Below, piece by piece: positions 5,078-52,766 of a stretch of DNA of 64,000 bases. Position 1 is the stretch's first letter, and every line of letters begins with the position of its first letter. Source of the stretch: an uncultured bacterium (GTDB lineage Bacteria > Patescibacteriota > Gracilibacteria > Absconditabacterales > Absconditicoccaceae). The notes under the pieces are model-generated. The model saw only the letters and a list, made by a program, of their open reading frames with translations, was not told the DNA's origin and ran no database searches. The position numbers were made by a program, and so were the translations under genes. Location: contig CAMVNG010000001.1 of NCBI GenBank assembly GCA_947168815.1, forward strand, positions 62,001-126,000. The letters are read 5' to 3'.

Positions 5078-5546
5078 GTCAATGTGAAAAAAACACATCT
5101 GACAAACTCCACCTTCATATTATTATTTGTATATATAAAGAAAGGAAAAATTCAAGAAACTAGATTTTTCTAAGAACTGGTGAGTTTAATAAAGATTATC
5201 TTGAAGTATTAAACTTCTTACTTCAAAAATCATTCTTTATGAAACGATTAGTACTAAAGTTTTAGTCAGATGATGAGATCCCTTCTCATCATAAGGCATT
5301 AATTTTAACTACCAAAACTTTCATATAGGATACTAAAGAAGCAAGATATTTCAAGGAATAATAGTTATCTCATCAGAATCTAAGAAAAAAATAGAATCGA
5401 GAATCTTTCAATTCAGATTATATCAAATAATCGATATGAAAGTATTGTCTTTGTAATGAAGAAATGGGTTCTACAACACAACCATTTATTCGTTAATACA
5501 AGACAAAATGAGAAAAACCCTAAATCATTCTAGAGGTTGAGGGAAA
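5078..5546 (+). ncRNA. Structured leader or separate RNA upstream of the SLH gene
   Basis: This 470-nt stretch has no ORF but many inverted repeats. The first bases can pair as TGTCA...TGACA enclosing TGTG/CACA (about 5081-5114). Further hairpins are GAAGT-ATTAA-ACTTC near 5200, ACTAAA-GT-TTTAGT near 5253, and TGATGAGA-TCCC-TTCTCATCA near 5270-5290. No terminator is evident before the gene, so it may be a very long 5' UTR with a regulatory role, or an RNA processed from it. I do not recognise a riboswitch class. Confidence 0.45.
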
Positions 5547-6962
5547 ATGTGGAGATTAGTTGCTGCGTTTGTACTTTCCGGATACGCTGTATCCACTGTA
5601 CTTGCATTTGATGTAAATTCGGCCAATTCAACATCATATCAGCAACCCATCGATTCAACAAGCCTTCATACTCAGATTGAAAGCGATGTTGCACTCTGAG
5701 TAAAGAAAGTTTGGAATAATTTGGTTGCCTACATGCAAGATGGAATACCTTCTAATCAAAGTAATTCATCTAACAGTAATCAAACTACTAGTAATCTTTC
5801 TAATCAAAAGAATACTAATAATGAGATTAAACAACCACTTGTTCGTATTAACTTTCCTGAAAGCGAATCAACATTGCTGCCCGTTTTTGAAGACATCCAA
5901 AACGATGCTCAAAAACAAAACATAGAACTCCTTGCTAGTATTGGGCTATTTCAAGGTGATGGACAAGGAAAATTTCATCCAAACAATCATGTACGTTGTA
6001 GCGACTTCGTAAGAGTAATCGTTGATCTCTACAGATATCAACTTGGTTATTCTTTAGATAGTGACGCTTGACTTACAAATAAAAAACTTTTGGATTTGAA
6101 ACAACCTAACACACTTCTTTGAAAAAAACTCAATACGGCAAAAGAACTATGATTACTTGAATGAGTTGATTTTATTGTGCGAGATCAAGCAATCACTCCT
6201 CTTCAAGTGAAGAAGATCATTAACAATGCTTTAGCTTTACATCTCAGTTTTGGTCAATCCGAAAAATTAGAGATGATTGATACAACAAAATCAGTCGTAA
6301 CTAAATCCGAAATGGCCAAATATCTTGTAGAAATTTTCCAAATGAAGTTTCCGCAAAACAATGATGTATTTAGTGATATAAGCAATCACAAAGATCGTTC
6401 AGCAATTACCATTCTTGCACAGCTAGGGGTAGTAGCTGGAAGAAATGGTAAATTCTATCCTGACAATGAAACTCATCGTTCAGATGGAATTATTATGATT
6501 GCTAACAGCCTTCTTGCTAAAGAAAGAAAAGCTCTCGTTATTAACGATTTTTATCATCTAAATACAATCAACGATGTCACCTATTTTGCAACCTATGCTC
6601 CCCATTTGGAATATCTGCTTGAGCATGAGATCGGCACTTCTCTGCTTAATACTACACAATCAGGAAGTACTTTCTTACCTGATGCTGTGCTTACTATGTG
6701 AGAAGCTTATACACTTGTTGCCGAAGCTGCTGGAATTAAAATTCTCAACCCTGATTCGTGAGCGGCCACCAAACCGATTACTAGAGGAGAATTAGCAAAC
6801 CTTCTTGTTGAAGCGTTTGAATTTAATACTCAATCAGTAAACGAATCAAGTAATAAAGAAACTAATTCCGTTCAAGTAGCTGTAGCCAATACTGAAGAAA
6901 TCTCTACAGAGAAAAAATCATTATTGGTATCAATACTTAAAGACGTGATCAACGAGCTTTAA
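5547..6962 (+). CDS. S-layer homology (SLH) domain surface protein
   Basis: 471 aa in code 25, stop TAA. An N-terminal signal peptide (WRLVAAFVLSGYAVSTVLA) is followed by a Ser/Asn/Gln-rich linker and at least two clear SLH-like repeats: about residues 120-170 (LLASIGLFQGDGQGKFHPN) and about 270-320 (AQLGVVAGRNGKFYPDN). A third, weaker one lies towards the C-terminus (TRGELANLLVEAF). SLH repeats usually anchor proteins to cell-wall polymers. The ATG at 5547 follows a purine-rich GAGGTTGAGGGAAA. It is the only gene behind the long structured leader; a second SLH protein is encoded at 34576-35505. Confidence 0.8.
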
Positions 6963-10128: not shown

Positions 10129-10911
10129 TTAACTTTGTAACTTAAATTTATATCTCAAATATTGAGCCAATTCAGCATATTTTTGTTTCTCTTCATTTCA
10201 AGCATACTTATAGGCATAGCTCAAGAAATCAACCACAGATTGATAAACCTTTTTAGCTTGATCCTTTTCTAATTTCCTTGCTTTAGGATAAGTTTCTCTC
10301 AATGATTTAGCATAAGAAGCACTAACATCTTGGAAATTCTCAGGTAAATCAGCCCATGTAGAAGTCAAAACAGCTATCACAGCATTAACAGCTTTCAAAG
10401 TTTCACCCTCTTCATATCAAATAGGAATTACATTTATAACTCATCATAACTTTTCAAAGTTTTTCATAGCTTTAGTCTTATCATATGACTTAGCAAAACA
10501 ATTAATTGCACCTACTCATTTAAAATGACTTCTTCGATATCAAGCAAGATTAACAACAGATACTTTAGGAGTCCCTGCATGAATCATAGTATTATTACCA
10601 GCATAAATTCACACATGAGTTATTTCATTCTCAGACTGATAAGTGTTTTTAAAGAAAATCAAATCCCCTATCTCAGCCTTTTTTATATCCTCAAAAAAAG
10701 ATTTTGCATTAGAAAATTGTTCCTTTTGCTGGAAAGAAGCTCTTTCTATTTCAATTCAAACATATCCTAAAATCTTTTGTGTGAAATTACTACAATCAGT
10801 AGGATCTCCTGGCAAACACCCCTCTCATCAAAATTCATAAGGAGAATTTAAAAATAATTCTGCAATTTTGATAATCATATCACGATTATCAGAAGATAGT
10901 GTCGTAGCCAT
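10129..10911 (-). CDS. NlpC/P60 family peptidase-like protein
   Basis: 260 aa in code 25, stop TAA. The N-terminal half fits NlpC/P60: the Cys nucleophile in PTDCSNF (Cys40), IGDLIFF, and the histidine in ITHVGIYAG followed by MIHAG. These enzymes cut peptide bonds in the peptidoglycan stem. The C-terminal about 120 residues are helical and not recognised. There is no signal peptide in the chosen frame, so either it acts in the cytoplasm or export is non-classical. It lies downstream of the lipoprotein gene at 10996-12330, with which it may form an operon. Confidence 0.8.
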
Positions 10912-20914: not shown

Positions 20915-23788
20915 ATGCTTAACTTCTTAAATAAAAGAACAATAACACTAAAATCCTTCGTAATCTTTTGATTTCTCTTTTTACTACTTGCAAAATTAAT
21001 CCTAATTTGAAATAGTTACTCGTATGCTTTTTCAGAAATGAGCAAAGGAGAAACCTGGTTCTATTTTTTTAAACTCATTCAAGAAGACTTACTTATTCTA
21101 TCATTAGTTTCAGTTTTTGTTCTCATTATCTGATATACAAAAAATCGATTAATAAAAAGTTTCTTTCTCATCCTTACCATTGTAACATTTTGAATTTATT
21201 TAGCAGATATACTAACAATCCTCTTCTTCCAACAAAGATTTATGCTAACATCAGGAGGAAGTTTTATAACTGCTGGAACTAATATTCTCCTATTCTATGT
21301 ATTAGTATTTTTCCTATGTTGCTGATTTCTTGTACTATTTGTTCGTCTATTTCTAAGAATAACCTGAATAAACATAAAAAATAAATGACTTATAGCAGTA
21401 CTGATAACTTCTTTTTTCATCTATACACTACCACTTCCAAAATTTGTTTTTCTATGAATAGATTTACCTAAAGATAATATACTAAGCCTATTAGTTAATC
21501 AAACACTTACCATTTCTCTCACTTGAAAATCAGAAGACACAACAGAAGAAAAAGTTAAATCAAATGAGATTATTGACGTTCCAAAAGAAGAACTAGACTT
21601 CCTTATAAAGAAAAAGGAACGATGGTATGGATTAGCATACGATGATCCTGAAAGAATTTTTGAAAGTTTCAAAACATCATCATTAACAAGACTTACAGAT
21701 GAATATTGAAATAGTTATGTCTTCGAAATTCTAGCAGAAGCTGCAAAAAATAAACCTGAACTTGCATTCATATACCTTGATAACTACAAGGATCGAAAAG
21801 ATGAAAACGATAAACCTATAGTAAAAGACCTTCTTAAAATAGCAATTCAAACTAAACCAGAACTAGCATTTGAATATCTTAAATACTATGAAAACTTTGT
21901 AGAAGATCACGAAAAAATAGCTAAATCATTACTACAATATGCAGCACAAATTTATCAAGCTCCTCTTACATTTGATCAACTTTATTACGAAGTACAAGGA
22001 AGAAAAAATAAAAACAATGTTATCTTAGTATTCTTAGAATCAGCATCCTCTGTCGATTCACAAAAATTCTGATGACTCAATAACAGACTTCCAAAAATAG
22101 ATAAAATAAGTAATGATTGAACTTCATTCATTAATATGCATGCAAACGGTTCTACTTCTGAAATGTGACACACTTCAACACTATTATGAGTTGAACCATT
22201 AGAATCAGATAGTAAAAAAACACGATATGAAAGCTTTACTTGATTCAAAACGACACTTCCTAACTTCTTTAATGAACTAGGATATTCAAGTATCTTTGTA
22301 AGTACAGCACCTCTTACATTCCTAGATCAAAGGACATTCCTAGAAAAAATTGGATACCAAACAATTATAGGAGAAGAAGCATTTGAATTAAGACCTAAAT
22401 ACACGTTCAATGCTGCTCCAGATGCTGATCTTTATGCAAAAGCTATAGAAACAATTGATCAGCAAACAGGTAGTTACTTTCTAACACTACAAACAATATC
22501 TTCTCATACTCCATATGATACTCCTTATGGACACAGTACAGAAGCTGTTTATCAATATGAAGACGATACTTTTGCACAGTTCTATGAAGACTTAAAAGCA
22601 AGAAATTTCTTCAATAACTGAATTCTAATAGTAATCTGAGATCATCGTAAAATGACTCCATTAGAAGATGAAGAATTCAAAAAATGGTGAGCAACCGCAT
22701 CTGCAAAGATTATCGGATTTATGATTTGAAAAAATATACCACAAAATACACTAGCAAATGGTATTTATCAACAAACAGATCTTTACCATTCACTTATTCG
22801 TGAATTCTGATCATGAGAAGTAACAGTCCTCAAGCAATATAACGACCTTTTCTCAAAAGAAATTACAAGAAAACGAAGTCTAAAACAACGATATTGAAAT
22901 AAAACACTAAATATTTCTGATGCAAACTGAAATGAATGAAGTCTTGATTTAACACGTATGAAAATTGTTGATTGAGCTGAGAATTTCCCAACAGAAGAAA
23001 TCCTAAATTACGTAAGACTATCTCTAGATTATCAAAAATCAAGTCTCAATGGAGATCAAGATGATGAGAAGAATAAAAGAATTATTTTAGTTGCTCATAG
23101 ATGACTTACAAAAAAAGAAACTGAAAACTCATTAAAAGCATTAAAAAAAGCTTATGATGCTTGAGCAGATTGAGTTGAAATTGATATAAACGTTACAAGA
23201 GATTGAGAACTTGTAGTTTATCACGGACCAAAACTCTATAACAATACTCAATGTAAAAACGAAACAAGAGATATTTGTCAAATGACCTATGATGAAGTAA
23301 AAAATTGTCTATTAAACAACGGAGATGAAATTATGAAAGCCGAAAATTTACTTCCTCAAATCAAAAATCGGTTTACCTATATCTTTATAGATTTTAAAGT
23401 ACAAAGTAGTGATTCATGTCCATTAAATGATAAAAGACTCTTTGAAAAGACTGTATCACTTGTACAAAAGAATAAAATGGATGCTAAAGTTATATTCTCT
23501 TCATTTAATGAAAAGATAGCAAAAGAACTTGGAGAAAGAGGAAACTTAATATCTGCATTAGACACTTATTCTCTATGAGATTTAGACAAACTACCATGAA
23601 GTTATTATAGTTATTTCATGACACCTGCTGAAAACTTTACAGATGCTCTTATGCAGAAACTCCAAAGATACCTAATTGATGGAGTTGCATATACAGTTAA
23701 TGATGTAGAAACACTTAAAAATCTACAAAAATTATGAGTAAAATTTGTAATGACTGATGACTTTGAAAAGTTAAAGAACGCCCTATAA
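20915..23788 (+). CDS. LtaS-like sulfatase fused to glycerophosphodiester phosphodiesterase
   Basis: 957 aa in code 25, one uninterrupted frame. About five N-terminal membrane segments are followed by an extracellular alkaline-phosphatase-type domain: VILVFLESASS, ANGSTSEMGHTST with the likely Thr/Ser nucleophile, and IGDHRKMTP. This domain is as in phosphoglycerol transferases of the LtaS group. After about residue 720 a GDPD domain begins (VAHRGLTKKETENSLKAL, DGVEIDINVTRDGELVVYHG). LtaS builds polyglycerol-phosphate from phosphatidylglycerol, and GDPD cuts glycerophosphodiesters. Joined in one chain they could make and trim, or recycle, the same polymer. The fusion function is inferred. Confidence 0.85.
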
Positions 23789-34575: not shown

Positions 34576-35505
34576 TTATTTATTATTTTCAGAAGCTCTC
34601 TTTAACATAATCATAACATTACCTCTCATTTCTTTCTTTGAATCTGCATTTTCTATCTTAGACATAATCCCTTTCGATTTCAACATATTCAAATGATTTT
34701 TATAATAAGGTTCACCTCAATCATTTTTAGAACCCCAAATAGCTCTTGAAAGAATAGTTCAAAATTGGGCTCTCGTAACCTCTCATGATGGATTAAACTT
34801 AGATACTCATTGTCACATCAATCAAAGCTGACATGCTTGCTTAATATATGGAGCCAAATCAGAAGAAGATTTAACATCATCAAATGTACAAGATTTTGAA
34901 GAATCAGGTTTTAATCAAAGTACATCCTTAGAAAAAACAACGATCATCTTAGCCATTGCCTGCCTAGTCAAAGATCAATCCAAATTAGCTTTATCAATAG
35001 ATTGTGTAGTAATTGATTTTCAATAAGCCCAATTATATGCATCAATATATTCCTGAGAATAAGTAGTTAATTCCTTTAATCATGAATCATCTCAAAATAT
35101 TTTTATAATTGTTGATCATGAAATATTATCATCTGTAAATTCAGAAACAACAATTCTATAAGTTCATTTCTTTGAGATACTCAATTTATTTTCATAAAGT
35201 ACTACTCATTTATCTTGCAAACCCATATTTCACCATCAAGAATCAGGAACCTTAGCCTCACTAGACTGCAAAAGTTTTCAATCAAGATTTTCAACCCAAA
35301 TAGAAAAATTTCATTCATAATTATTCATCACTTTTCACTTCTTTTGTGCGGTTATTTTCAAACTTACAAATTGATTTTCCTCCGCCTTATCAGGAGTTAC
35401 TTCAACAAGAAATGTATCTGGATAAAAATCACTATAAGAAGCATGAACCCCTAAAGAAAAGACCAATCAAACTAAGAAACCTCAAAGAATAAGAAATTTT
35501 TTCAT
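34576..35505 (-). CDS. SLH-domain surface protein with an N-terminal Ig-like region
   Basis: 309 aa in code 25. Signal peptide (MKKFLILGGFLVGLVFSLGVHA), then a beta-rich domain (about residues 30-145; VEVTPDKAEENQFVSLKITA ... KGTYRIVVSEF). SLH-type repeats follow: YIDAYNWAYGKSITT, LTRQAMAKMIVVFS, then FDDVKSSSDLAPYIKQACQL, MGQGVSKFNPSGEVTRAQFG. Predicted to be exported and attached to the cell surface. It is 20 nt behind a 57-aa gene and, further up, mutL. Confidence 0.8.
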
Positions 35506-35525
35506 TTTTATATTAAAGATAAAAT

Positions 35526-35699
35526 CTAATTTACAATTACATCTTCTTCATATCATTCAACTTCATCATCCTCATCTCATACAATTCCTTTATACATAGC
35601 ACTAGCAAAAAATCTTTTTTGCTCTGCTATTCTTCTCTCTACAGTCTTACGATTTGTCGCTTTTTCTGCTTCTCTAATTGCATATTCTTCTTCTCACAT
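35526..35699 (-). CDS. Small acidic hypothetical protein (57 aa)
   Basis: Starts ATG-TGA (Met-Gly) at 35699, stop TAG. The first half is a charged helix (AIREAEKATNRKTVERRIAE) and the tail is very acidic (DEDDEVEGYEEDV). No family recognised. Support comes from its fit between mutL (gap 23 nt) and the SLH gene (gap 20 nt) in the same direction, and from two further TGA-Gly codons. Confidence 0.55.
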
Positions 35700-38145: not shown

Positions 38146-38646
38146 ATGCTAAAATATATTGTATCATTTTTAGGTATTATTATCTTCTCAATTTGAGGAC
38201 TTACTTTTGGAAATAATCTAGATGCATTATGACCAACAAAAAACCTCAATAAAATATTAACTGAATCTGACACTAAGATCATTCCTCCACAAGATGCCGA
38301 TCCAATGAGAGACTGAGTTTATCGTGGTGTTGTATGAACAGAAAAAAAAGTCGTTATATGAATTTCAGAATCTGGGAAAAAGATTGATGATCATGAAGAC
38401 GCAACAAAAAGAACTGTAGAAACAATACAAAGACTCATTAACTGGGCTCTTTGATTATTAGCATTAGCTGCAATGTTAGTTGTCATTTTCGGTGGAATAC
38501 AAATGCTTACTGCTGCATGAGATGATTGAAAATTTAAAAATTGAAAAAAAGCCATTAAAAAAGCATCAATTGGTATCATATGAGTTGCTCTTAGTTGGAT
38601 TATTGTAAGCTTCATATTCTGGCTAGTAGAAACATTTATCGAATAA
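38146..38646 (+). CDS. VirB2/TrbC-like pilin 1
   Basis: 166 aa in code 25. An N-terminal signal segment and about 70 extracytoplasmic residues are followed by two membrane helices, with the turn AAGDDGKFKNGKKAIKKASIG between them. That arrangement is typical of the pilin/TrbC-like proteins common in CPR genomes. The ATG at 38146 is chosen because the one at 38141 meets TAA after three codons. It is followed by a similar gene and a TraC-like gene. Confidence 0.65.
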
Positions 38647-38669
38647 TAATTTTACTTAACAAATAAAAA

Positions 38670-39242
38670 ATGAAAAAATTGTTAAAGAGAATAACAGTGC
38701 TTTCCATCTTACTTATCTCAATGATAGGATTAAATATTTATGCTTTCTGATGAGAGAATAAATTCTATTATACAGATGGACCAAGTGTGAAAGATAATGA
38801 GAAATTAGAAACTGATTATTGAAAATTAATTAAAGATGATGCTGTTTGAGCAGAAGGATGAGAATGAACGAGTACTGACCAATCAAAAAGTCTTTTAGTT
38901 AGATCTCTAGATGTTTTTAAACTTAATTCAACAGTAAAAAGTTGAAGATATAAATGAGTTCAAAAAGCGTTATATTATGCACAATTTCTAATTAATTACG
39001 CATTAAGCTTTGTTGCATTTATAGCACTTTGTCTCCTTATGTATAGTTTCTATGCAGTTATCATATGAGACGAAAAACAAATTGATAAAGCAAAATCATA
39101 TCTAAAAGGAATTGCTATAGCAATCATTGTAATGTCCCTAGCTTGGTTTATAGTGTCATTAATATTCCGAATATATGATGATATTGCAGAAAACAACTCC
39201 GCAACTTGACCAAGCCAATCAGTTATAATGCAACAACCATAA
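38670..39242 (+). CDS. VirB2/TrbC-like pilin 2
   Basis: 190 aa. Same architecture as the preceding gene: signal segment, an about 70-residue hydrophilic region rich in TGA-glycine, then two membrane helices with a basic turn (GDEKQIDKAKSYLKGIAIAI). The N-terminal regions are not obviously similar to each other. Probably encodes a membrane or pilus subunit of the same apparatus; 23 nt behind pilin 1. Confidence 0.6.
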
Positions 39243-39270
39243 TTACTTTAACCATAGATAAAAACAAATA

Positions 39271-39975
39271 ATGCTCTTCAAAAATTTAGAAAATAACAAT
39301 ATTCAAAAAGGAAAACAAGAGTCTCAATTCAATACTGAGAACATGCTTCCTATTTCTGAAATTAAAGATTGATTTGTTATTCTCAAAGACTGATGAATTA
39401 GAGCAATCTTAAAAGCAGAAGGTATAAACCTCGACCTCAAAAACTTTGATGAAATACAAACAATCTTGGAACAATATAAAAGATTCTTAAACGGATTAGA
39501 ATTTCCTCTTCAATTTCTAGTACGTAATACCTATCTTGATTTAAGAGAATATCTTTGATATGTGCAAAATAATATCGCAAAATTAGATCCAGGAGCATTA
39601 AAAAAACAAGGAAATAGTTATGCAGAATTCCTAGAAAATATTAATATGAAACAATGATTAATATTTGTAAAAGAGTTCTATGTTACAATTCCTTACTATG
39701 AAGATGAACAAGATTCATCTCAAGTTAAAAAACCATGGTGGAGTAAATTCATGGATACCTTAAATAGCAAAGACGATATAGAAAGCATCGTTTCTAGATA
39801 TAGAAATTTTGTAAAAGGACAAAAAATGTTAAACACTAGAATTTCACTTGTACAAGAAGGATTATCAAGTTTATGAGTGAGAACAGAACTATTAAATACT
39901 AAAGATGTTATCTCTCTACTCTTTTCTATGTACAATCCTCTACTTGATTCAACACAATGAGATTATAAAGAATAA
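39271..39975 (+). CDS. TraC-like type IV secretion protein, N-terminal domain only
   Basis: 234 aa. LPISEIKDGFVILKDGGIRA, the segment EIQTILEQYKRFLNGLEFPL and the QFLVRNTYLDL stretch match the N-terminal domain of TraC/VirB4-type proteins. No Walker A or B follows, so the ATPase half is not part of this polypeptide; in CPR genomes it is often a separate gene. It ends the pilin gene run, 24 nt before adk. Confidence 0.65.
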
Positions 39976-45375: not shown

Positions 45376-45473
45376 CAGTATAAAACTTTAAAAATAATAA
45401 AAAACTTAATCGCATTAGACTATAAAAAAATGGATTCCGTTTTCAAGTGTTTTTATTTTAACTAAAAGAAAAA

Positions 45474-45500
45474 ACCGTAAATTTTACGGTCATTTTTTCC
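45474..45500 (-). terminator. Intrinsic terminator of the AMP phosphorylase operon
   Basis: ACCGTAAA / TTTACGGT hairpin followed by TTTTTTC on the minus strand, between the AMP phosphorylase stop and fusA. Confidence 0.8.
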
Positions 45501-45516
45501 TTTATATAAGAACTAT

Positions 45517-47019
45517 TTATTTTATAAGATAAGGAATCTTACTTTCAAGAAACTCTTTAGCCATTTCCATCTTATGTTCAGAGTTAGCATAACAAGTCAT
45601 TATAACTTCTCAAGCTTTTACTTTATCTCACAATTTCTTATGTAAAAAGACTCATGCTGTTAAATCTGAAGGAGCTCACAATGTTCTCGCTATCATATTT
45701 AAATATTTCATATCAATAGATTTAACCTTTCAATTTTTTTCAGAAAGAACTTCATAAGTATGCTGTCATAGTACTAGCTCCTCTGATCAAATAGTAGGAT
45801 TTTCTCACTTTTGAGCCTTAATAACAGCCTGTAACTTTTCTAATGCCTTTCAACTTACCAAAGTGTCTTTTGCTAATTTATAAGCTGTTCTATAGAACTT
45901 AGAAACTCAACATAATACAAGTAACTGAGCAGCTAAATCTAAAGCCTTTTCTTCAAGATCTTTTGCTCTCAAAGGTGATTGCTGCAATACTCTCAAAACC
46001 TCTCTTACTTGCAAAACAGCTCCTACTCAATTTCATATTGGTTGTTCTGCATTTGTTATTGTAGCTTCAGTCTTAATTCATAATGCATTTCACAAAAGCT
46101 TAAAACGTTTTGCCATTTTTTTTGCATCTTTCTTAGATGTAACCTTAGCTGTTGGACCTACAGGAATATCAATCAAACAATGACTAACTCACATAGCATA
46201 GTTTTTAGCCATAATAGAAGAGATCATTCTTGCATATGGTTCAATACCAACAGGAGCAGAAACCTTAATAATTCTATCATTAGCTGGAGCTAAATTAAGA
46301 TTACCATTCCATGCTAAACAACATCATTGTTCTTCAACTAATCTAATAATATCAGCCTTCTTAAGTTCACTTCTCATTAACACTTCAACACACTCACCAG
46401 TTGCCGCAGGAGATGTAATAGATTTTGAAAATGTTTTAGGAACAGTAATACCTAAAGAAGCCAACAAAGGAACAACAATCATTGTGGTTTCATTACCTGA
46501 AACACCTCAAATACAGTATTTACTAGCAACTATTCATGGAAATCTATACATATCTCATGTATATGCAGTAGCTTTAGTTGTATAAACTAGTTCTTCCAAA
46601 TCTGTTTTATAGAAGAAACTTGTTGCTGTATAATAAGCCAACGCCAAATCAGAAAGTTTATTATTTTGAATATCCTCAACAATCGCAGCAACTTCTTCAT
46701 TATTAATTTTCTTTCATAATAACTTCTTCCTTATTGCCTGCATTGATAATGGATTATTTTTCACAAAAGAAATCAAAACACTATCTCATTCTTGAATAGG
46801 ATAAGCTTTCAAAATTTCTTCAGTAACTCAAACCTTTCAAGGTTGCACATATGAAGATACAGCAACATCAACAACATATTCAGCACCTTTCCTTATAAGA
46901 GTAACCTTATCATTTGGTGTAATTCAAAATTGTGTCGCTTGCTCTGTATTTAGAATTGCAACGAGTCAATCTCAATTTGTAATGTCTGTTTCAACAACTT
47001 TTGCATTAAAGATTTCCAT
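45517..47019 (-). CDS. AMP phosphorylase (archaeal-type thymidine phosphorylase family)
   Basis: 500 aa, longer than bacterial thymidine phosphorylase because of the N-terminal extra domain (about 80 residues) seen in archaeal AMP phosphorylases. Phosphorylase motifs: KYCIGGVSGNETTMIVVPLL, KSITSPAATGE, SHCLIDIPVGPTAKV. The enzyme converts AMP and phosphate to adenine and ribose-1,5-bisphosphate. This is the first step of the pathway that ends at RuBisCO in archaea and several CPR lineages. No RuBisCO or isomerase gene is in this window. Third gene of an operon behind two giant unknown proteins. Confidence 0.88.
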
Positions 47020-47050: not shown

Positions 47051-50000
47051 TTAAGCAATATCATTTTGTGGATTATCAGGTATTTTAACACTTACATCAA
47101 ATTCAAGTTCAAACGCCTTATCCATCTCACGATCCAATTTCTGATCAGCACGAACAAAATGTCATAAATCAGCAACTTCACTTCATGTTTCTCTAATAAC
47201 TCACTGAACCGCTTTATCTCTCCACTCTTCAAGAGATGATAATTCTTGATTTCTTAACTCAGTTAAAGGATTACATAGTTGATTATATCTATCACGTATA
47301 CCCTGCATAAATCTTTCATGTATAACACTTCATTCACTAGCACCATTTAATATCACAATCGAACTAACATTTAATTTTTCCTTTCAATCAACATCTGTAT
47401 ACATCAATTCTCTAAGAATACTTCAGAATGCCAAATCCTTTTCTTTCCAATTTTTTTTCGTCTTAGCATCAAGTATTAAATTATTTCCCCTATTCTCAAG
47501 ATTCTTAGTCTTCTCTACAATAAATTTCAATAACGGATTATTTAAAGAAGATTCATTTATTGATAATCAATTATTGATACTATAAATAATTTCAGAAAAT
47601 TGATCAAAAAAGAATCTTACTTCAGCCAAGCTATCACGAGATATATTTTGTACTGTATTAATAACCGCCAATAACAACTCATAATAAGGTCCATCTTGAC
47701 TCTCAGTTAATTGATCTTGTGTAATTCACAAAATCTCTCTAGCCTTATTAACAATTTCATTCTTCATACGCTCTGAATCATTTCTTTCATGAATTCATTC
47801 AATCTCTGTAAATCAAACATCAACATGCATATATCTTTGGATATTCCTAGATATTTCATCCTGCAAAGATTCAAAAGAATCAGGTCTTTCTCATCACATT
47901 GGCAAAACTCAGAATACATCCACTCAATCCAAATATTCAGAATACTTTTTTAAAGTATAAATTAATCTTTTTTGATCTGTCTGTCCTCAATTAAAAAAGA
48001 TTTCTCAATCCTTCAATGATATACTCTCTTGTGCGAAAATTTCTCAAGTCTTAGGTCTATACTCATAAAGTGTTTCAGGGTGGTATTGATCCTTAAAATA
48101 GAAAACATCATCCTTTTGTCATGGTAACTCAACCGGAGAAATTGAGAATCAAAAGATATTTTCTAAAAAGTCTTTTCTAACATTTAAAGCACTTACACCA
48201 ATCTGCTCTTTCAAAAAATCAGATAACTCTCAAGCAAAACTAATTATAACATCTCATTTATTTTCCCATAATTTTCAAAAAAATCGTTCCTTAATAGTCT
48301 CAAATTGTTGATCTCAAGTTTCATAATTAATAATTCTATCAAAAAGCATTTCATCATCCAACAATTCTCCTGGCATATTCAAATTCTCAACAAAGCTTCT
48401 CCTAACATCAGGATTACTCAAAAGCTCATTTACAACACCATAAATTTTATCCTTAGGTATTAGATGCATCAACCTTTCTTCGACATCTTTTTGTTGTTCT
48501 AAAGTCTTTCAAGACATATCCAACCACTTAGCTATTTCTCAATTTAATTTCGAACTCTGATTAGCTGAATTAGAAATAAATGAACGCTCAAATTGAGTAT
48601 CAGAAGAAATAGTTGGATAAGCAGATTTATTCCCATTAACTCAAACAAAATCCCTATGTCAACGTTCTTTAGATCTTCGATAAGCCGTCGGATTACTCCA
48701 ATAAACTATCTTTTCTTCAACAAATGAAGAATAAGTAATATAACGTTCCTTAAACAATTTATTTCAAAAATTTCATTTATGCTTTTCATTTATTTTCAAA
48801 ATTTTATCAATATGAGCAATATATTCATTTGAACCGATTCCACTTTTAAATTTTTCATCATCTTTCAACATAGATAAAAACCAATAAACATACCCATCAT
48901 CATCCCGTTTTCAATCATACTTCATTTTAAAACAATTCTCAGAATTTGAGAATATTCACATAAATAATTGCAATTTTTTCAAAACATTACCATCTTTTCA
49001 ATCCCAAGACATAACTAACTCTCATAGTATTTCAGAATATGAACAATCTCAATAAACACTCTCCTTTACAGTAATTATATCATTTTCTGAAAAAACTATA
49101 TTTGCATCTTTAACCATCTCATAAAAGTCTTGATTAACAGATGAAGCTCCTCATCACCTTAAAACTTGCTCTATAATTGAAAGGTATGCAAGATTCGACT
49201 CGTGAAAATATTTAATATTAGTCCTAATAGATTTTCTCCTCTGCTCATGCCACTTTTCAACATCCTGATTAAGCAAATTTTCTAATTCTGTAACATCCTT
49301 AGCATCAAGAAGTAATTCATCTAAAACATACCTAAAATTTCACCTACCGTCTCATCTATCAGAATAAAAATATACATCAATCATATTAGCTCATGAAATT
49401 GAATATTCAGAAGATTCTCTTTTTTTAATAATCCAATTTTTTAAAAAATCTAATTTTTTAATTTCATCTTCATATTCCACCTTTAATGAATTATTCCTTT
49501 CATTCCATCATCCTTGAGAAAGATATAATTTACGAGAATTAATCGTATCATCAATCAAGTTAGTAATAGATTGTTCGTCTATATTTTTTTTCTGGAATAA
49601 TACTTCAGACGCTCTTGAAAAATTGTTCACCGCCTCTTCATATGTGCTAGCTCACCGATATTTTCCAACAATTTCAAAAGAGTTGAGCATTGAACGGACT
49701 CACTTACTATTATTACCCAAATAATTATAATATTGCTTAATATTAGAATCTCTATCAGCAAAATTAGAACGATAAAGTAAATTTTGTGATTTTTTATCAC
49801 TTCTCCATATTCAAAACAATTTTAACAAATCATTTTTTGTGTTCAATCCATCAAAATTTCATGTTTCATCAAGTTTCATGTAAATATATTCCAAAAAACC
49901 AACAAACTCTTTATCATTTGGATTATATTTTTTTACAATTTCATCAAAAACATCATTTAATTTATCAATATTTCAGTTGTGACCATTATAAATAACATAA

Positions 50001-50137
50001 ACCTTAGATAACCAAGTATCTACATACCTCTTAACTTTTTGCTTAAAAACATCAGCATTTTCAACTTCTTTTTTTTCTGGAACAGACTGAGCAGCGACAT
50101 CCTGCTTGCGTTCCTCTATTTCTGCGTGTTCAGTCAT
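47051..50137 (-). CDS. Giant unknown protein A (1028 aa), paralog of 50165-52618
   Basis: One uninterrupted frame in code 25 with dozens of TGA-Gly codons, stop TAA. There is no signal peptide or membrane segment; it is mostly charged helical sequence rich in Asn, Asp, Glu and Lys. The C-terminal 600 residues align by eye with those of the neighbouring gene: the KIVYWSNPTAYRR segment, RFFGKLWENKGDVIISFAGE, VRKDFLENIFGFSISPVELP, TLYEYRPKTGEI, QDGPYYELLLAVINTV and LAFGSILRELM. I recognise no known domain. It lies 27 nt behind its paralog and 31 nt before AMP phosphorylase. Confidence 0.85.
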
Positions 50138-50164
50138 AACCAGAACAATAAAAAATAAAAATAA

Positions 50165-52618
50165 TTAAGCCTTTAAACTAACTTCACTCATAAATTTAAC
50201 TTCATCTTGATAATCTCACAACTGAGATGCATAATCTCAAAGAATATTAGAATTCTCCAATACCTTTGAATACTCACTTCAAACTTCTCTTTCAAACGAC
50301 AAATATTTTTCAGAATCTAAACTACTCTGATTTAATTCTAAAATCTTATTTACATCCAATTTCTCCTCTCAATCAATAACAGAAATTAAAAGCCTCATAA
50401 TACTTCAAAAAGCCAAAGACTTTCTTTTCATATATCATCAAGTATCCAAGTCTTTAATAAAACTTTCTCAAGAACTTACCGTTAATCACTTATTTTTTTC
50501 TACAACAAATCTCAACAATGGATCTTGTAAACTATTTAAATCAACACTTAAATATCACTGTTCCTGTAACTGCCTAAATTTTCAAATAAATTGATTTAAT
50601 GCATCCAATCTCGATTTATCATTTTCCTGTTCAACAGTTCTAAAAACAGCAGACATAATTTGATAATATGGTCTATCTTGCGTATCTCTTTCAGATAAAC
50701 TATCCTTATCAATTCATAATAAATCCTTTACTCAAATAACAATACCATTTCTCATACGCTCAATTTCATTATTTTCCTTATTACGTGTTTCTACAACCGC
50801 TCATTCAGAAAATTGCATATATTTTTCAATTCTAGTTCAAATATCTTCTTTTAAATCATTGATATTACTCTTTCTCTCTCATGAAAAATCTAATAAATCT
50901 CATACATCAACTCTACTGACTAAATCATCAAACTTAGGTATCTCACATATAAATTTCTTCTCTTCCAATTCTGATGTTCAAAAATTAATTACCTCTCATC
51001 TCATCGAAATTCAAAGCACAGCATCAATTCTTCAAGTAAGAGGATTATATTCGTATACGGTATCAGGATATTCAGCATCAGAGAAATAAAAGATATCAGA
51101 ACTTCAATTTTTTACTTCAACTTCCTTAATTGAAAATCAAAAAGCACGTTCCAAATATTGTTTTCTCAATCATAATGCACTGATTCAAGCTTGTTCTCTA
51201 ATAAATCATGCTAACTCTCATGTAAATCAAATAAGATTACCCTCAAACTTAGAAACTAGTTTTCAATAAAACCGATCTCTTACAACAGAATATTCATCAT
51301 CAGGATGCTCTAAATTAATAATACTATCCTTAACTTTTTCAAAAACCATATTCATAGTTTGACCAGGAAATTCCTTTCAAAACAACTGATTAAATCAACC
51401 GTCACCAAGTATTATATCATCATCACTTAAAAATAATTGAATTATTTCATTCATTCTATCTTGAGGTAAAAGTTTCCAAACCCTCTCAAATACATCCCTA
51501 TAATCTTCACTTCATTTTTCCTTATCTCTCAAATCTATTTTACTTCTAATATCTCAATCAAGTTTACTATTCCTATGAGAATCTACAAAAGACCTCTCTT
51601 GTTCAGTACTTGATTCAAGTGATGAATAAAAATGTTTTCCTCATCTATCAACTCTTGGAGCATCAACTTGATTTCTCCAGTAAGCAACAGGATTTTCCAA
51701 ATATTTTTGCAACTCAGTATTAACATCATCAATACTTTTAAACAATCAATCTACTTCATCAAACCAATCATGTGTATTTAATATATTGTTAATAATATCT
51801 CTATACGTATCAGCCTCAGGTAATGCATTAAACGAACTAGTATTTAAAATATTTTTCAAAAAAGTACTTGTTTGTCTTCACCACCATCAATCAAGTGAAA
51901 CATCTTGATCCTCCGCTGTGTTAAATCTTGCAAAAACTTGCAATTTTCTAAATCAATCATTCCTTTTCCCAGAAAAATTATAGTTTTGCAATATTCATCC
52001 AAGGATATCCCAATAAGAATAATTAGCAAATTTTCCTAATCAAGCAATTCCAACCTCCTGATTACGATCAAGTTTTCACAAAACATCCTTAATCTGATCA
52101 GCTTTTTCATCCTCAGAAATATCAGCCTTCATTATATTTCTCAATTTTTCATTAGCAGCAATAGCCTTAAGATTACTTTCGTCATCAATCAATATTTTTA
52201 AATAATCAAGTCTCTCATCATTCCAAACCTGAAACAATTTTTCAACCTCAGTTAAATCACTACAAGACACTATTTGATCTTTTTTCTCAATAAGGAAAAC
52301 GTCAAAAAGATTCTCTCATGTCATTGTAGTTTTATTATATTCACTATGATTTGCCATCAATTGAGATATATCAATTCATTTACTAGCAAGATTATCTTTC
52401 ATTTCTCATAGTTCTAAACTTCTTGCACCTTTCCAATCAGAGAAAGAGTTAGATTGACTTTTAAATTTATCTTCCACAACATTAATTTCCAATTTTTTAG
52501 TTTTCAAAAATGTTTCAGCTTTAAGAGTTTCAACAATATTTTTTCAAGCAAAATTAGCCCCTCTTTCAATAGCACCACCTAATCATTCAGCTTCTATAAA
52601 TCTTCAAATTTTTCACAT
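50165..52618 (-). CDS. Giant unknown protein B (817 aa), paralog of 47051-50137
   Basis: Code-25 frame from ATG at 52618 (Met-Gly-Lys) to TAA. No signal or membrane span. The C-terminal 550 residues are the counterpart of protein A: NPVAYWRNQVDAPRVDR, RFYGKLVSKFEGNLIGFTGE, LRKQYLERAFGFSIKEVEV, TVYEYNPLTGRIDAV, QDRPYYQIMSAVFRTVE and LAFGSIMRLLI. Protein B lacks most of the first 200-250 residues of A, and the N-terminal parts are unrelated by eye. Identity is moderate, so the duplication is old. Function unknown; first gene of the three-gene operon. Confidence 0.85.
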
Positions 52619-52766
52619 ACTAAGTGACAAATAAATGAATAAAAATCTCTACTAAATTATACCCAATTTTGCTTTTTTTTACAAAAAAATTCCAACTTTT
52701 CTTTGACTTCAAGCCCAAAAATGCTATACTGCAAAATAGTTTTATTTTTCTTATTAACTCATTCAC

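Follow-up and report, generated by a model that had tools for sequence, protein, structure and literature searches.

Two adjacent genes in a 64,000-nucleotide stretch of an uncultured Absconditicoccaceae bacterium (assembly GCA_947168815.1, contig CAMVNG010000001.1, positions 62,001 to 126,000; the whole stretch is called the window below) encode giant proteins, here named P1 and P2, that precede a gene for an AMP phosphorylase. Judged by profile comparisons, the two are not orphans and form part of an undescribed, lineage-restricted family of very large proteins (about 660-1160 amino acids), in which a constant C-terminal module (C-module) follows a variable N-terminal part (N-part). The giants evolve at an unusual rate, are linked in operons to genes of a nucleotide pathway that runs from AMP through R15P isomerase to RuBisCO, and co-occur with RuBisCO across the family Absconditicoccaceae. 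The bacterium itself is tiny and probably host-dependent, and we tentatively place the giants at its contact with the host cell.

The window was decoded with translation table 25, in which TGA encodes glycine; with table 11, no long open reading frame (ORF) is found between 45.4 and 54.9 kb. Table 25 confirms the two giant ORFs and the short spacers that an earlier note on this DNA had described. All three genes of the putative operon lie on the minus strand, where P2 (50165-52618; 817 amino acids from ATG, 48 TGA glycine codons) is followed after 27 nucleotides by its tandem paralogue P1 (47051-50137; 1028 amino acids, 45 TGA codons) and, after another 31 nucleotides, by a 500-amino acid enzyme of the AMP phosphorylase/archaeal-type thymidine phosphorylase family (45517-47019). 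An alternative TTG start at 52630 would extend P2 to 821 amino acids. The enzyme passes the thresholds of NF003338 (449.8 bits; cut-off 434) and TIGR02645 (442.2 bits; cut-off 434.6) but falls short of that of the AMP_phos equivalog TIGR03327 (435.9 vs 535 bits), and "AMP phosphorylase" is therefore a family-level name here. Both giants look native to the genome, since their GC content, their GC content at third codon positions and their use of TGA for glycine are similar to those of the AMP phosphorylase gene.

Single-sequence and single-genus searches reach the window's genus only, and the genus-restricted orphan reading that they suggest proved wrong: gene order and a pooled C-module profile gave the distant members. 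In another genus (g4), the AMP phosphorylase nearest to that of the window (60-67% identical) is immediately preceded by one or two giant ORFs that carry no annotation. These are homologous among themselves and not to P1 or P2 by BLAST. When the sets of the window's genus and of g4 were compared profile to profile, however, 182 collinear C-terminal columns aligned at E = 3.8e-4 with a score of 44.5, and none of 60 column-shuffled controls exceeded 21.0. A profile pooled from 13 C-terminal cores then retrieved members in two further genera absent from the profile (E = 7e-11 to 3e-7). Finally, a 19-sequence profile detected giants in 27 of the 353 genomes of the class at E ≤ 1.3e-7, values that for close relatives of earlier hits hold partly by construction, because the profile had been enlarged with its own hits. 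All 27 genomes belong to the window's own family and represent eight genera, so that relatives exist in 26 genomes besides the one under study. Among 379 genomes of the phylum, no convincing match was found outside this family; two hits there at E = 0.002, like two outside the family at 0.008-0.013 in the class search, were rejected as chance level over several hundred genomes. Other very large unannotated proteins (1031-1160 amino acids) occur near giants in other genera (L073 11858-15340, L098 1-3094, and L099 300-3749) and have no C-module match.

Comparison of 35 sequences places the C-module, the part common to all members, in roughly 350 residues at the extreme C-terminus. The N-part preceding it is largely helical and unconserved between genera. 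The module consists of a helix, a small beta-sheet segment with the motif [YF]-x-[YF]-[DN]-x-x-T-G-x-[ILV], and further helices; the motif glycine is the only residue that is invariant in 19 core sequences. In P1, the module covers residues 619-1028 (47051-48283, minus strand) and in P2 residues 450-817 (50165-51271, minus strand), with scores of 296 and 267 bits against profile A10 that arise by construction, as both proteins are in the A10 alignment. The motif reads YEYRPKTG in P1 (residues 691-698; 48044-48067, minus strand) and YEYNPLTG in P2 (residues 522-529; 51032-51055, minus strand), where it lies in the small beta-sheet part.

Pairwise comparisons indicate that the giants evolve extremely fast. 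Between the window and genome G002, the AMP phosphorylases are 82% and the tyrosyl-tRNA synthetases 89% identical, against 25-30% for the giants, and in most pairs whose AMP phosphorylases share 71-90% identity the giants share about 25-35%; at 82-90% identity of the adjacent enzyme, that of the giants is about 30%. In the closest pair (G033/G016), the ratio of nonsynonymous to synonymous substitution rates (dN/dS) is 0.54 for the N-part, about 0.11 for the C-module and 0.08 for AMP phosphorylase, a pattern that points to purifying selection on the C-module.

The paralogy of P1 and P2, already recognized in the earlier note, stands, and it extends further than the 550-600 C-terminal residues given there: residues 243-955 of P1 align with residues 92-787 of P2 over 744 columns (31% identity, E = 1e-80), while the N-termini are unrelated, as had been claimed. 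The genome holds a third paralogue (1061 amino acids) at a distance of about 80 kb. A C-module tree, many of whose branches are long, joins P1 to P2 and leaves the single G002 copy outside the pair (support 98/92); the tandem pair is thus young. There are separate tandem pairs in G031 and in G005/G067; therefore, duplication beside AMP phosphorylase occurred more than once.

Two paralogous clades make up the AMP phosphorylases of the family. The window's clade comprises eight genomes of two genera (support 100/100), and seven of these have one or two giants 15-46 nucleotides upstream on the same strand; in the eighth (G023), a single opposite-strand gene separates giant and AMP phosphorylase. 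Every enzyme of this clade thus has a giant adjacent or one gene away, a count in which the first g4 loci had been picked because of their AMP phosphorylase, whereas the later genome-wide searches were not so picked. In genus g14 (G063, G064, and a split ORF in G060), the genes for R15P isomerase and RuBisCO flank a giant, and an AMP phosphorylase from the second clade comes after it; G004 also has a giant between R15P isomerase and RuBisCO. Over all 31 giant loci, 12 have an AMP-pathway gene within five ORFs. The proposed tie to AMP phosphorylase consequently holds for the locus and its clade, but not for the family as a whole, many members of which are located elsewhere.

Several further features of these neighborhoods were observed. 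The giant of the G060 RuBisCO operon is split into two overlapping ORFs of 430 and 334 amino acids (L138 7141-9385), which could mean a pseudogene or a fault of the assembly. Next to many giants outside AMP loci stands a small coiled-coil protein whose N-terminus is of the Sec type. At L096, L134, L137, L140, L142, L145, L136, L131, and L097, these neighbors measure about 200-290 amino acids, and their signal-type N-termini end in AxAQ-like sites and accompany a repetitive coiled coil. In the window's own genome and in G031, which belongs to another genus, genes of the type IV secretion system (T4SS), namely a VirB4-type ATPase and pilins, run straight into RuBisCO, an arrangement absent from G002 and most others; in both (L155 3500-10033 and L160 4871-10651), a VirB4/TraG-type ATPase, a 308-amino acid protein and a T4SS pilin are co-directional with it.

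Among 48 genomes of the family, 25 carry both giants and RuBisCO, two giants only, two RuBisCO only and 19 neither (Fisher p = 3e-9; counted by genus, 7, 1, 0, and 14, p = 5e-5), although these counts are not phylogenetically independent. The two genomes with giants only are 73-74% complete. Together with the purifying selection on the C-module, this co-occurrence supports the importance that had been ascribed to the giants from the space they take up. In both genomes with RuBisCO only, the operon carries an unrelated giant with surface-protein domains. The G062 protein (L167 4070-8356; 1428 amino acids), encoded between R15P isomerase and RuBisCO, has beta-helix, Ig-like and weak SLH matches, and the G022 protein (L047 8442-12611; 1389 amino acids), encoded between two phosphorylases and RuBisCO, has BspA-type leucine-rich repeats, Listeria-Bacteroides repeats and a weak SLH match. 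The SLH matches of both are C-terminal, their N-termini are hydrophobic, and neither matches the C-module.

Searches for known families agreed with the view that P1 and P2 are devoid of known domains, signals and membrane spans. Neither protein has a significant match in Pfam, NCBIfam or PHROG, a match to a solved structure, or a Pfam adhesion domain, and no membrane span or signal was found (best 19-residue Kyte-Doolittle mean 0.94 in both). Hydropathy profiles of 18 members showed no Sec signal, with the sole apparent exception of the G002 homologue, whose transmembrane N-terminus precedes an internal methionine at residue 20 and was discarded as a start-codon artefact. Weak Pfam matches to MinE, CHASE9 and Ty3_capsid are all below cut-off and vary between members, and were attributed to chance. 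Chance was also taken to explain a weak similarity between the C-module profile and the Legionella effector lpg1496 (E = 0.033), a helical match in which no motif is common to both. A phage origin was rejected on the lack of any PHROG match and of relatives in viral contigs. Structure prediction, for which the window sequences and L016 served as the only input, revealed no fold. AlphaFold2 gave an uninterpretable model for P2 alone (mean predicted local distance difference test score, pLDDT, of 35) and a mean of 57.8 for the C-module with three sequences, in which the helix and the beta-sheet part, with strands within residues 56-118 of the model, reach about 58-82 locally. Foldseek found no match in the PDB at E ≤ 0.001, and the best VIA-align hit, to a designed filament, has a Z of 5.6, within the range that the tool's note calls uninformative.

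A short segment within the N-part resembles peptidoglycan-binding domains (PGBDs). It is degenerate in P2 (51845-51955, minus strand; about residues 222-258, LQ...DGWWGRQT) and more degraded in its P1 counterpart (48866-48982, minus strand; about residues 386-424; alignments A1 and A8). The underlying pattern, LQ...DGxxGxxT, was found in P2, L3, L4, and four g4 members, and is degenerate in P1; in many members, it is degenerate or undetected. The relative G067b matches PG_binding_1 (PF01471) at E = 2.6e-4 and 21.5 bits, just under the cut-off of 23 bits, and P1 and P2 gave no match to this model up to E = 1 (E = 5 for P2). The window-genus and g4 segments, which were picked by the motif, align with each other in hhalign at E = 1.5e-5; their score is 28.6, and 100 shuffles gave at most 13.7. 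A search of the PDB with the segment profile found no PGBD chain.

Our tentative reading, offered at well below even confidence, is that the giants serve in host contact, do not use the Sec route, join a variable head to a constant tail and are expressed with the catabolism of host nucleotides. It is suggested by this architecture, by the unusual rate, by the PG-binding-type motif, by the exported neighbors and by the replacement with surface giants. The operon linkage to AMP phosphorylase and RuBisCO genes, the RuBisCO co-occurrence and the T4SS genes that lead into RuBisCO in two genomes also count in its favor. The proteins would be at work where the bacterium touches its host (or prey) cell and would leave by a non-Sec route, with the T4SS-like machine as the most obvious candidate; the constant C-module may be the part that is recognized or that assembles, and the variable N-part may meet the host wall. 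Being made together with AMP phosphorylase, R15P isomerase and RuBisCO, which would convert host nucleotides to 3-phosphoglycerate, they could belong to a "capture and digest" unit.

A number of observations weigh against such a role. No signal peptide or secretion motif was found, and the models offer no fold in support. Pfam gives no PG_binding match for either P1 or P2, which also lack a small exported partner at the window locus and are not adjacent to T4SS genes; moreover, T4SSs are widespread across Patescibacteria (PMC12102498), so their presence discriminates little. Several giant copies have no link to AMP genes and are found instead beside dnaA/clpB, an MFS transporter and a der-like GTPase, rsmH, recA, or a murA-like gene. 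The functional link of the giants to the AMP-RuBisCO pathway is suggestive, and common membership in one sub-clade may account for some or all of the co-occurrence with RuBisCO.

Nearly as likely as host contact, if doubtful when taken by itself, is a cytosolic scaffold or regulator of AMP phosphorylase, R15P isomerase and RuBisCO, whose C-module would bind an enzyme and whose N-part would be a loosely constrained helical spacer. The lack of signals and membrane spans fits this proposal, as the apparent span of G002 precedes the first ATG-type starts, and so do the RuBisCO co-occurrence and the operon linkage to RuBisCO and to both paralogous AMP phosphorylase clades. Yet more than half of the giant loci lie away from AMP-pathway genes, and G032, G015, G016 and G033 have an intact cluster of R15P isomerase, RuBisCO and AMP phosphorylase genes without a giant inside. 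A scaffold would also leave unexplained the small exported proteins that flank many giants and the sub-threshold PG_binding_1 match of G067b. We consider it unlikely that the giants are a dedicated, hitherto unknown accessory of the AMP-RuBisCO pathway in Patescibacteria that couples nucleotide catabolism to the capture of nucleotides or nucleic acids from the host. Such an accessory would have been duplicated repeatedly next to the pathway genes, and in two genomes unrelated surface giants would have taken its place.

The peptidoglycan-binding-like motif and the exported coiled-coil neighbors could also belong to a structural protein of the bacterium's own wall or surface that is not directed at a host, and the unrelated SLH-domain giants at equivalent operon positions in G062 and G022, as well as the giant surface proteins reported for Vampirococcus (PMC8080830), would suit such a protein. 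We regard this as improbable, given that the family has neither a Sec signal nor an anchoring domain and that in many members the motif is degraded or escapes detection. An unlikely explanation, too, is that of a functionally unrelated, fast-evolving passenger landing in highly expressed operons, with RuBisCO co-occurrence merely reflecting the sub-clade, for although the diverse locations, the recurrent tandem duplication and a presence that largely follows genus are what one would expect of it, the position beside AMP phosphorylase is kept across two genera whose giants there have diverged to about 12-30% identity, the linkage involves two paralogous AMP phosphorylase clades, and the C-module bears the mark of purifying selection.

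Returning to host contact, two sets of described proteins make such a role plausible by analogy, even though they differ from the giants in domains and signals: the Vampirococcus giants (PMC8080830) and PGBD proteins (PMC10936435). Those of Vampirococcus lugosii are likewise very large, lineage-specific and supposed to act in host contact, in an epibiont of the same broad group that reads TGA as glycine (PMC8080830). They are, however, predicted membrane proteins of 1392-4163 amino acids with adhesion domains (PMC8080830), whereas the present family, at 660-1160 amino acids, lacks membrane spans, signals and adhesion domains. PGBD proteins are highly expressed in Patescibacteria that parasitize archaea and, unlike the giants, carry signal peptides (PMC10936435). 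The resemblance to PG_binding_1 proteins lies in the LQ...DGxxGxxT motif of several members and in G067b; in the window proteins, the motif amounts to a single short segment of a far larger protein.

T4SS effectors provide an analogy in mode of working only, drawn partly from general knowledge: like X-Tfe/XVIPCD effectors, the giants would combine the lack of a Sec signal with a constant C-module, a variable N-part, an occasional PG-binding motif and, beside many copies, a small exported neighbor. Bacteria-killing T4SS effectors have a C-terminal XVIPCD recruitment domain and come with an immunity protein that carries a signal peptide (PMC6759196, PMC6536674). By contrast, the C-module of the family is about 350 amino acids long, no toxin domain was found, and the window copies have no exported neighbor. 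The C-modules match no model in Pfam or NCBIfam, a result that covers XVIPCD only as far as these libraries contain a model of it.

The pathway itself, a nucleotide route through AMP, R15P isomerase and RuBisCO (archaeal type III), has been reported in some Absconditabacteria and is absent from V. lugosii (PMC8080830). Its enzyme genes are those around the giants, and none of the papers in our literature search counts a giant protein among its components.

Elsewhere in the window, a promoter-like site upstream of P2 (52656-52684, minus strand; TTGTAA-17-TATAAT) is a consensus match only, from a scan that was at chance overall (41 found vs 42.4 in shuffles). A terminator-like hairpin with a T-run directly past the AMP phosphorylase stop codon (45473-45491, minus strand) was identified by scan and sequence reading, with hairpins likewise at chance level overall (2 found vs 1.5 in shuffles). 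At 38146-39975 (plus strand), two T4SS pilin genes (PF18895, E = 3.8e-15 and 0.0013) are followed by an ORF of 234 amino acids that we read as VirB4-like and that has no Pfam match. One ORF (20915-23788, plus strand) begins with a membrane part, has a domain of the sulfatase type (PF00884) and ends in a glycerophosphodiester phosphodiesterase domain (PF03009). Candidate surface proteins include two SLH-domain proteins (5508-6962, plus strand; 34576-35580, minus strand) and an NlpC/P60 protein (10129-10911, minus strand).

Two apparent orphans thus become members of a defined family whose C-terminal module is constant, whose phyletic range is clear and which has a metabolic partner. Almost half of the proteins predicted in such bacteria defy annotation, with 48.9% in Vampirococcus (PMC8080830). 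Families of the present kind resemble single-genus orphans in ordinary searches and surface only through gene order and pooled profiles. If the AMP-RuBisCO link is functional, it would connect one particular nutrient pathway with a giant protein that evolves fast, and would offer a testable handle.

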